Positions 46,740 to 49,354 of a DNA stretch of 64,000 bases are shown here, in pieces (position 1 is the stretch's first letter; the number at the start of each line of letters is the position of its first letter). The position numbers were made by a program, and so were the translations under genes. The stretch comes from Qipengyuania seohaensis (GTDB lineage Bacteria; Pseudomonadota; Alphaproteobacteria; Sphingomonadales; Sphingomonadaceae), in contig NZ_CP024920.1 in the NCBI RefSeq assembly GCF_002795865.1, positions 620,001 through 684,000 on the forward strand. Direction: 5' to 3'. The notes under the pieces were generated by a model. The model was not told where the DNA came from. It worked only from the letters and a program-made list of their open reading frames with translations, and did no database searches.

Positions 46740-47522
46740 ATGGCGAAACGGTGTGCAGGCAAGCTGGCGCTGGTGACCGGCGCGGCGCAAGGCCTCGGGC
46801 GTGCCCATGCAAGACGGCTGGCCGAAGAAGGCGCGCGGGTGCTGTGCACCGATATCAATGGTGAAGGCGCCGAAGCGACCGCCGCCGAAATCGTCGAAGA
46901 GATGGGTGCAGGCCATGCCTATGGTGTCCAGCACGACGTAACCAACCCCGAAGACTGGGAGCGTGTGGTCGAAACCGCCGATGCGGAACTCGGCGGCCTG
47001 AATGTGCTGGTGAACAACGCGGGTATCGGCGTCGCCGGTAATATCGAGACCTGCGATTTCGACGACTGGAAGCGGTGTTTTTCGGTCAATGTCGATTCGA
47101 TCTTCCACGGCTGCCAGAAGGCCCTGCCGCTGATGCGCGAGCACGCGCCCGGTTCGATCATCAACATTTCCTCGATCGCCGGCCTCATCGCCAGCGACAC
47201 GATGCCTGCGTACAATGCGTCGAAAGCTGCAGTCTGGATGCTGTCGAAGTCGATTGCGCTGCATTGCGCCAAGAAGCAGATGCAGATCCGCTGCAATTCC
47301 ATCCACCCGACATTCGTCGATACGCCGATCCTCGACGGGACGGCACGACATTCGGGACTGGATAAGGATGTGCTGCTGGAAAAACTCGCCCGGCAGATCC
47401 CGCTCAGGTTCGTTGGCGAGCCGAACGATATCGCCAATGCGGTGGTTTATCTCGCCAGTGACGAGAGCCGTTTCATGACCGGTGCGGAGCTCAAGCTCGA
47501 CGGCGGTATCTCGGCCATGTGA
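46740..47522 (+). CDS. SDR family oxidoreductase
   Basis: The 260-residue classical SDR has TGAAQGLGRAHARRLAEEG (NAD(P) loop), an Asp at the end of strand 2 (VLCTDIN, favouring NAD), NNAGIG, catalytic Ser in INISSIAGLIAS and YNASK for YxxxK. It ends with FMTGAELKLDGGISAM, the usual C-terminal motif. The substrate is unknown. It forms a run with LemA, TPM and Nudix genes and ends at a shared terminator. Confidence 0.9.
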   Translation: MAKRCAGKLALVTGAAQGLGRAHARRLAEEGARVLCTDINGEGAEATAAEIVEEMGAGHAYGVQHDVTNPEDWERVVETADAELGGLNVLVNNAGIGVAGNIETCDFDDWKRCFSVNVDSIFHGCQKALPLMREHAPGSIINISSIAGLIASDTMPAYNASKAAVWMLSKSIALHCAKKQMQIRCNSIHPTFVDTPILDGTARHSGLDKDVLLEKLARQIPLRFVGEPNDIANAVVYLASDESRFMTGAELKLDGGISAM

Positions 47523-47559: not shown

Positions 47560-47778
47560 TCAGTCTGCGATCAATCCGATCGCCAGGTAGATCAGGATGA
47601 AGCTGCCGAAGCCGAGCAGCGTTCCCAGGACGAAACCGACGCGAACCAGCGTGGTGTCGATCCCGAAGTAGCGGCCGATACCGGCGCATACACCCATCAT
47701 CTTTGCATTTGTGCGGTCCAGTTTGAAACTGCGGCTGGGGCGCACTGCATTGTCGTCGCGGAATTTAAGCTCGCTCAT
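47560..47778 (-). CDS. pspC: PspC domain protein
   Basis: The 72-residue protein has a PspC domain: FKLDRTNAKMMGVCAGIGRY, then FGIDTTLVRVGFVLGTLLGF and a membrane span GSFILIYLAIGLIAD. PspC is a small inner-membrane sensor of envelope damage in the phage-shock response. Its ATG overlaps the stop of a 39-residue peptide gene as ATGA, so it is translationally coupled and is the last gene of a sigma-54-type unit. PspA and PspB genes are not nearby. Confidence 0.93.
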   Translation of the reverse strand: MSELKFRDDNAVRPSRSFKLDRTNAKMMGVCAGIGRYFGIDTTLVRVGFVLGTLLGFGSFILIYLAIGLIAD

Positions 47779-47894
47779 GCGATCATTCCGGTCGGGGTGG
47801 CATAGGCAATGGCGGTGGCGAAGAAGCCGGCCGAGATCATTACCGAAACGGCAGCGGCCATGACGCGGCTACCGATGTTTTCATTGTCGAACAT
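47775..47894 (-). CDS. 39-residue single-span peptide (second of a tandem pair) upstream of pspC
   Basis: ATG 47894 to TGA 47775 encodes a 39-residue peptide: MFDNENIGSRVMAAAVSVMI, then about 15 further hydrophobic residues, ending ATPTGMIA. AAGGAA lies about 8 bases upstream of the ATG. It has an acidic N-terminus and one hydrophobic span. Its stop overlaps pspC. It is the same length as the next upstream peptide and shares the ATP-x-G-(M/L)-(I/V)-A ending. The pair looks like a duplication. Function unknown; membrane location inferred. Confidence 0.8.
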   Translation of the reverse strand: MFDNENIGSRVMAAAVSVMISAGFFATAIAYATPTGMIA

Positions 47895-47927: not shown

Positions 47928-48047
47928 TCAGGCGACGAGGCCAGCGGGTGTGGCGGGGATGATTGCGAAAGCCATGCTGAGTGCCGAGAGGCCGAGTGCG
48001 AAGACAGCTGCGAAAGCCTTGTTGGTGTCGAATGCGAAAGCGGACAT
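47928..48047 (-). CDS. 39-residue single-span peptide (first of a tandem pair), first gene of the sigma-54 unit
   Basis: ATG 48047 to TGA 47928 encodes 39 residues: MSAFAFDTNKAFAAVFALG, then LSALSMAFAIIPATPAGLVA. GGGAG lies 8 bases before the ATG. One hydrophobic span fills most of the peptide, and the ending ATPAGLVA matches ATPTGMIA in the second peptide. It is about 52 bases downstream of the predicted sigma-54 start site. The context with pspC suggests a membrane-stress role, by inference only. Confidence 0.82.
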   Translation of the reverse strand: MSAFAFDTNKAFAAVFALGLSALSMAFAIIPATPAGLVA

Positions 48048-48107
48048 GAGTGATACTCCCTTTTTGATTTCTGCGTCCCGCCGGACCTTCCGGGGGACAC
48101 CAGAATG

Positions 48108-48126
48108 ATTGCAACAGGCGTGCCAA
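48108..48126 (-). promoter_or_regulatory. Sigma-54 (-24/-12) promoter of the small peptide-pspC unit
   Basis: The minus strand reads TTGGCACGCCTGTTGCAAT, a full match to the published consensus YTGGCACG-N4-TTGCW, with GG and GC exactly 12 bases apart. Predicted transcription start is near 48099. Confidence 0.88.
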
Positions 48127-48198
48127 ACTCGAAGAACGGCAGATTTCTGCGGATGTCCGCTTAATCTGCCAGACAGGTTTCGTTCATCAATCCGAAAG

Positions 48199-48235
48199 GT
48201 TGGGAAATTTCGCCAACATTTGGATTTCGCCAAAT
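48199..48235. promoter_or_regulatory. Tandem inverted repeats, candidate upstream activating sites for an enhancer-binding protein
   Basis: Two side-by-side sites share ATTTCGCCAA (48207-48216 and 48224-48233). The first is GTTGG-N9-CCAAC (48199-48217), the second ATTTGG-N6-CCAAAT (48218-48235). They lie about 100-136 bases upstream of the predicted sigma-54 start, the usual range for PspF-type activators. They also fall 43 bases before recF. Confidence 0.72.
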
Positions 48236-48277: not shown

Positions 48278-49354
48278 ATGCTCGAGCGCATTTCCCTCAC
48301 CCAGTTTCGCAACCATGCCACTACCGACCTGGTGGATACGGCGCGTTTCAACCTGCTGGTTGGCGAGAACGGTGCGGGCAAAACCAATGTCCTGGAGGCG
48401 CTGTCCCTGCTCGCGCCCGGAAGGGGACTGAGGCGCGCGGCACTGGTCGACATGGTGGCCCACGGCGCTGCGACGGGCTTCGCAATCGGTGCAGATCTCT
48501 CGCAGGAAGGTGAAAGCGTTCGCCTCGGCACCTATACGGAAAGCGACAATCCCGGTCGCCGGAAGGTCCGGATCAACGGTGCCGAAGCCACCGCCTCTGC
48601 GCTCGGGGAGTGGCTCGCGCTAACGTGGCTCACACCCGCAATGGATGGCTTGTTCACCGGCCCCGCCGCCGATCGCAGGCGATTCATGGACCGCATGGCC
48701 CTCGCCCTCGACCCGGCGCACGCCAGCCATGCATCGCGCTACGAAGCGGCGCTGCGCGAACGCAACCGGCTGCTGGCAGACGACCGCGCACCGGACAGTT
48801 CATGGCTCGAAGCGATCGAGGCGCAGATGGTCGAACACGGCGGACGCCTTATCGCCGGACGCGCTGCACTGGTCGATACCTTGGTGGCCAGCATCGCGCA
48901 TATGCCTGCCGAGCCCTTTGCCCGCCCTGCCCTCACCTATGCTCCGGGCGGAGCCGACAATGCAGACGCCCTGTCGCAATCCCTGTTCGAGAACCGCACA
49001 CGCGACCGCGCGGCGCAGCGCACGCTCACCGGCCCACATCGTGACGAGCTGGAAGTGATCCACGCAGCAAAACGCGTACCTGCCGCGCAGAGTTCGACCG
49101 GAGAACAGAAGGCCATGCTCGTCGCGATAACGCTCGCGCATGCCGCACTGGCCGCCAAAGGTCGCAGCGGTGTCCTGTTGCTGGACGAAGTCGCCGCGCA
49201 CCTCGACCCGATCCGGCGCGCAGCCTTGTTCGATCAACTTTCCGCCAGCGGTGCGCAGGTCTGGATGACAGGCACCGAACTCGCGCCCTTCGAAACCATC
49301 GCGCCGCAAGCCGCAACCTGGCGGGTCGAGGGCGGCGAGGTCACGCGTATCTAA
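48278..49354 (+). CDS. recF: DNA replication/repair protein RecF
   Basis: The 358-residue protein has MLERISLTQFRNHATTDL, Walker A VGENGAGKTNVLEAL, the ABC signature STGEQKAML and Walker B LLLDEVAAHLDP, a RecF/SMC-like layout. It helps RecOR load RecA on gaps at stalled forks. It is not in the usual dnaA-dnaN neighbourhood here. The stop overlaps the convergent tesA-like gene by 4 bases. Confidence 0.96.
   Translation: MLERISLTQFRNHATTDLVDTARFNLLVGENGAGKTNVLEALSLLAPGRGLRRAALVDMVAHGAATGFAIGADLSQEGESVRLGTYTESDNPGRRKVRINGAEATASALGEWLALTWLTPAMDGLFTGPAADRRRFMDRMALALDPAHASHASRYEAALRERNRLLADDRAPDSSWLEAIEAQMVEHGGRLIAGRAALVDTLVASIAHMPAEPFARPALTYAPGGADNADALSQSLFENRTRDRAAQRTLTGPHRDELEVIHAAKRVPAAQSSTGEQKAMLVAITLAHAALAAKGRSGVLLLDEVAAHLDPIRRAALFDQLSASGAQVWMTGTELAPFETIAPQAATWRVEGGEVTRI

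Follow-up and report, generated by a model that had tools for sequence, protein, structure and literature searches.

Gene content and organisation of the locus

The window analysed here is a stretch of 64,000 nucleotides, corresponding to positions 620001-684000 of a single-contig genome of 2.94 Mb. On its minus strand lies a compact unit that comprises, in order, a -24/-12 promoter site, a leader, two 39-codon open reading frames (ORFs) and a 72-codon gene for a PspC-domain protein, here pspC2 (Table 1). Two peptides of 39 residues followed by pspC had been predicted originally, and the ORF list bears this out. A RecF/SMC-type gene and a convergent oxidoreductase-like gene lie on either side, and the ORF list and profile searches of the region agree with the prediction that neither pspA, pspB nor an activator gene adjoins the unit. 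The stop codon of the second peptide ORF overlaps the start codon of pspC2 as ATGA, which suggests that the two are translationally coupled. No Rfam family matched between 47500 and 48300 at E values up to 1. Judged by the PspC protein, the closest named relatives (97-99% identity) are Qipengyuania aquimaris, Q. nanhaisediminis and Q. intermedia.

Table 1. Features of the pspC2 unit and its neighbours, in window coordinates.
Feature	Position	Strand	Remarks
Distal inverted repeat of the original prediction	48219-48234	minus	Mainly one half kept in relatives
Candidate PspF-type upstream activating site, TTGGCGAAATTTCCCAA	48200-48216	minus	17-bp palindrome; -90 from first base of -24 element
Conserved block, CCTTTCGGATTGATGAACG	48181-48199	minus	-73 to -55
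Conserved palindrome and T-run	48127-48156	minus	-30 to -1
Sigma-54 -24/-12 promoter, TTGGCACGCCTGTTGCA	48110-48126	minus	Pattern match
5'-terminal leader stem-loop	48073-48100	minus	Predicted by folding; begins at about +1 (predicted start)
Micropeptide gene 1	47928-48047	minus	39 aa; one hydrophobic stretch (by eye); ends GLVA
Micropeptide gene 2	47775-47894	minus	39 aa; one hydrophobic stretch (by eye); ends GMIA
pspC2	47560-47778	minus	72 aa, PspC domain only; PF04024, 59.7 bits (cut-off 25)
RecF/SMC-type gene	48278-49354	plus	Profile match; presumed recF; flanks the unit
Oxidoreductase-like gene	46740-47522	plus	Named by eye; convergent with the unit

A conserved predicted sigma-54 promoter

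The promoter sequence, which we take to be the core sigma-54 consensus, had been described as matching that consensus at every position; the match is exact for the core positions, to which the scoring extends. Within the window, the pattern TTGGCACGN4TTGCW has a single exact match, and allowing up to two mismatches gives five matches against 3.0 expected. Across the 2.94 Mb of the genome, YTGGCACN5TTGCW is found three times, once at the pspA promoter, compared with one match for a reversed-pattern control, and a relaxed search returns ten -24/-12-like sites against six in the control. Taken alone, without an upstream site, the -24/-12 consensus is not significant. The predicted transcription start near 48099 is consistent with counting from the GC of the -12 element.

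Of 76 loci collected for comparison, we excluded ten with weak matches that by title lie outside the Sphingomonadales (L113-L122); one further locus lacks the promoter region (L086). The first peptide of each locus was picked by hand from the ORF lists. In all 65 Sphingomonadales loci with upstream DNA, the best -24/-12 match lies 67-93 nt before the ATG of this peptide and reaches 0.87-1.00 of the maximum score, with second-best matches (over up to 330 nt) at 0.85 or below.

The upstream site and its counterpart at pspA

The two adjacent inverted repeats with a common core that the original prediction described upstream of the promoter are present: on the plus strand, GTTGGGAAATTTCGCCAAC (48199-48217) and TTTGGATTTCGCCAAA (48219-48234) share ATTTCGCCAA at 48207 and 48224. 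The first of these, a 19-bp palindrome, encloses the 17-bp palindrome that we regard as the candidate upstream activating site. In 63 of the 65 loci there is a 17-bp palindrome with the consensus TTGGTGAAATTTCCCAA whose start lies at -89 to -91, counted from the first base of the -24 element; the exceptions are L094 and the truncated locus L073.

From 64 loci (L073 being too short), we derived a site matrix with the register fixed between -92 and -88, against which one of the 64 sites scores below 0. The matrix was scanned over the 140 nt that precede the promoter in each of 30 pspF/pspA regions from the genus, none of which had been used in building it. Its best match fell at -89 to -91 in 29 of these regions, with scores of 12.7-23.2, and at -71 in the other (L145). 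These best matches were equalled by only 0-2 of 200 dinucleotide shuffles per region in the 30 regions.

A second test used 40 hand-picked stretches from other genera of the family, drawn from 62 genomes with a separate PspC match; two of the 40 are identical to loci in the matrix. The -24/-12 match reached at least 0.85 in 39 of them, so that conservation of the promoter in relatives, a point named beforehand as one on which the prediction might fail, extends from 65/65 loci to 39/40 further ones. The upstream site lay at -89 to -91 in 34/40, scoring 7.4-30.9 (34 loci, without a shuffle control) and only 7-11 in L174, L188 and L196, while the best site was elsewhere in six stretches (L178, L183, L198, L199, L202 and L206). 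Across the family, the promoter, the upstream site and the spacing between them are kept, while the sequence in between is unconserved. Within the genome itself, a search for the same repeat before other -24/-12 sites recovered it at pspA only: of the ten -24/-12-like sites, the unit scores 27.4, pspA scores 21.1 and the others score 4.4 or less.

In the pspA promoters, the upstream site runs into the opening codons of pspF when its longest ORF is taken. In families of the order other than this one, PspF matches begin only at query residues 4-17, mostly 12-17, so the true start of pspF is probably Met13, which would make the upstream site at pspA non-coding.

Other conserved elements of the promoter region

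The notion of paired repeats stood in part: the repeat at -90 is conserved as a strong site, but conservation of the distal one is partial. In 27 non-redundant erythrobacter-group loci, the distal repeat region (-108 to -92) has a mean of 0.88 bits, compared with 1.43 for the upstream site and 0.29 for the flanks. Most of its conservation comes from the promoter-proximal CCAA half at -97 to -94, and in the sister species (L047-L049) the distal repeat has lost its identity with the proximal one.

A block at -73 to -55 has a mean of 1.34 bits in the same 27 loci, against 0.29 for the flanks, and over all 64 loci it has 0.61 bits compared with 1.07 for the palindrome. The mean matrix-score profile of the unit promoters peaks only at -90 (and -89), whereas that of the pspA promoters also peaks at -70, a register that the block shares. 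In our proposal the block, whose matrix score is low, acts as a weak second site; -90 and -70, rather than -90 and the distal repeat, probably make up the pair. An integration host factor (IHF) site was considered for the -70 block, and comparison by eye with the consensus gave no fit. Directly upstream of the -24 element there is also a conserved palindrome (GGCGGAATTCCGCC-like) together with a T-run, which may serve as a binding site for another regulator or as an element of DNA shape.

PspF and RpoN in the genome

The original prediction had no activator gene next to the unit. None lies beside it; however, the genome does contain a PspF gene, about 1.57 Mb away and divergent from pspA, found by the search for an NtrC/PspF-like activator that had been suggested. 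Eight proteins of the genome match Sigma54_activat over the cut-off, five of them strongly. PspF is a 353-codon ORF that scores 474.6 bits against TIGR02974 (cut-off 443.55), and it diverges from an ORF for a 50-aa peptide, pspA (TIGR02977, 277.8 bits; cut-off 242.95), a PspB-like frame (identified by eye) and pspC. RpoN is encoded as well, at 434.8 bits (cut-off 277.35).

Distribution across relatives

Among 61 genomes surveyed, a PspC2-like match is present in all 37 genomes of the genus (weak in G004 and G022), and PspF is found at an E value of 1e-80 in 36 of the 37. The exception, G001 (99% complete), has no PspF match at 1e-80 or over the family cut-off, which would reflect either loss or an assembly gap. 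This genome keeps the unit and its promoter (L035; by coordinates also L063, with promoter and upstream site). In the 24 genomes from other families of the order, PspC matches occur in 19, of which 17 have the match within about 3 kb of pspF (by eye) and two have it in a 601-aa frame; a separate unit was not seen in these 24 genomes with a single query.

Within its own family, PspF is found in 94 of 99 genomes and the PspC domain also in 94, the same five having neither among the matches listed. In at least 62 of the 94 PspF-positive genomes, there is a PspC match with no pspF on its contig within 6 kb, although some of these could be assembly splits. The unit does not appear to be needed for the Psp system, since 32 of the 94 have no separate PspC among the matches listed.

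The leader is predicted to form a stem-loop

The 40-nt stretch from the predicted start (about +1) folds at -21.5 kcal/mol. Over 65 unit leaders the mean folding z-score is -1.45 (43 below -1), and over 37 further leaders, from which L167, L168 and L206 were left out, it is -1.95 (32 below -1); because the loci are related to one another, these counts cannot be treated as independent. The pspA leaders show no stem-loop trend (mean z -0.37 over 30, with 7 below -1). The sequence of the stem varies between genera and its position is constant. An alignment of 21 leaders gave a weak covariation signal, with only four consensus pairs, three of which have two-sided changes, and breaks in up to five sequences. 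The simplest reading of the predicted stem-loop is that it acts as a 5' stabiliser.

The micropeptides and PspC2

PspC2 falls short of the PspC equivalog model TIGR02978 (53.5 bits compared with 104 required), aligning with profile positions 3-59 of 121. By these profile matches, PspC2 is a protein that keeps the PspC domain and not the remainder of PspC.

Over 66 loci, the number of peptide copies is one in 28, two in 35, three in two and four in one. One of the loci counted with three (L110) really has two, the third being an internal PspC start, and the 108 rows therefore represent 107 peptides. In L112 (Sphingomonas deserti), four micropeptide copies stand in tandem before pspC2. The last residue of the 107 peptides is Ala in 96 and Ile or Val in 11, while the penultimate residue is Val, Ile or Leu in 92. 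In all nine comparisons dN is lower than dS (4/4 for peptide 1 and 5/5 for peptide 2), which places the predicted micropeptides under purifying selection.

Neither peptide matches Pfam at E values up to 1, and in NCBIfam peptide 1 has a single match, to PtrA, below threshold (13.6 bits; cut-off 31). No PspG model was matched by the peptides or PspC2 in Pfam (E up to 1) or NCBIfam (E up to 0.1). A profile of the peptides matches only the two copies of the unit in its own genome, and in 38 of the 40 further family loci the second unit likewise has one or more small ORFs for a short hydrophobic peptide with a nonpolar C-terminus.

The pspA operon of the genus opens with an uncharacterised hydrophobic peptide of 50 aa, MYDRKFF-like, in 30/30 cases (L012:4216-4368, minus strand; L123-L152), and all 30 of these peptides end in Ala. 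Homology with the peptides of the unit was considered; comparison of the two profiles gave no alignment, and we therefore do not claim that the two peptide families are homologous.

Discussion

We propose, with a probability of about 0.85, that the unit forms part of the phage-shock response, as a second PspF/sigma-54 transcription unit on which the PspF from the gene next to pspA acts in trans. PspF would bind the palindrome at -90, and probably the weak second site at -70, and would contact sigma-54 RNA polymerase at -24/-12. Membrane stress would relieve the inhibition of PspF by PspA and so switch the unit on, giving a transcript whose leader carries the predicted 5' stem-loop and which encodes a minimal PspC together with one to four micropeptides. 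At the level of sequence, comparison establishes the promoter, the upstream site, their spacing and the presence of PspF and RpoN. The PspF-type regulation originally predicted gains support from the pspA-like site and spacing, from the 34/40 further relatives and from the presence of both proteins, and we infer that PspF is the protein that binds the site. Induction would be expected to follow loss of membrane integrity or of the proton-motive force, and the products may serve as inner-membrane effectors beside PspA, PspB and PspC, by analogy with PspG in enterobacteria.

A reading compatible with PspF control, and in our judgement an unlikely one, is that the micropeptides resemble type I toxins or lower the proton-motive force (cf. 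TisB and YohP), with PspC2 as a safeguard, and bring about a low-energy state under membrane stress. The peptides are indeed short, hydrophobic and tandemly duplicated (one to four copies), and passages of PMC12719787 report that E. coli YohP lowers the membrane potential and induces PspA and PspC. The dN/dS comparisons, all nine in the direction of constraint, and the coupling of the peptides to pspC2 in the loci examined speak against such a function. Toxins of the TisB type usually carry charges near the helix ends, whereas only 14 of the 108 peptide rows have any charged residue within the last 14 positions.

It is very unlikely that the unit, while dependent on sigma-54, is driven by another enhancer-binding protein of the genome: five proteins with strong Sigma54_activat matches are encoded, but the site and its -90 spacing are also found at the pspA promoter, with pspF in divergent orientation beside it, and a -24/-12-like site before a P-II-like gene (by eye) has no upstream site. 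That the promoter-like and palindromic sequences arose by chance, without sigma-54 control, is hardly credible. In its favour, relaxed consensus matches exceed the control only modestly (10 compared with 6); against it, the promoter, upstream site and spacing are conserved over the family around unconserved intervening sequence.

In the genus, both PspF-type units open with a short hydrophobic peptide that has a nonpolar C-terminus (mostly Val, Ile or Leu, then Ala). Nonpolar C-terminal ends can serve as signals for ClpXP- or Tsp/Prc-like proteases. It is conceivable, if doubtful, that Psp systems have in the micropeptides a new class of component, with a nonpolar C-terminus that may be a protease signal; the peptides would then be short-lived and tune PspC and PspA as sensors or timers, instead of being structural effectors.

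The nearest parallels lie in known Psp systems. The pspFABC operon shares its upstream site and spacing with the unit and would share its activator and sigma factor, and in this genus it likewise opens with a short hydrophobic peptide (50 aa, 30/30 loci). The unit differs in having no pspA or pspB, a PspC reduced to its domain, and peptides that cannot be aligned with the pspA leader peptide. PspF of E. coli drives both pspABCDE and a separate pspG (PMC3068692 and PMC9239133). The pspG gene of E. coli and Yersinia is likewise a gene for a small membrane protein, situated outside the psp operon with a PspF-dependent promoter of its own (PMC9239133, in part). The control logic is comparable, whereas the content is unrelated, the products of the unit being micropeptides and a PspC domain. 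Stand-alone PspC-domain proteins, with PspC encoded without PspA beside membrane-protein genes, occur in many phyla and are linked to transporters, DNA-binding proteins or kinases, according to sections of PMC9239133. Unlike these, the unit has a PspF-type site in front of it, and the genome that carries it also encodes a full psp operon.

Zymomonas mobilis is a relative in the same order. According to passages of PMC3495753, its psp genes are upregulated by ethanol stress, and ZMO1061, the hypothetical protein ZMO1062 and ZMO1063-1065 have been placed together in a possible psp regulon. No description of the unit was found among open-access titles and the openings of abstracts, and the sections consulted of two Psp surveys (PMC9239133 and PMC11237479) make no mention of it.

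From its sequence features, the unit looks like an unstudied second arm of the membrane-stress (phage-shock) response. To our knowledge, PspF is known for very few targets. The PspF regulon of a large alphaproteobacterial family would gain a second conserved unit, and its tandem micropeptide family, which has no significant match in Pfam or NCBIfam, is paired with a minimal PspC. Researchers working on small proteins and on envelope stress gain a defined, testable gene set, and the definition of the site at -90 can be used for mapping PspF regulons in these bacteria.
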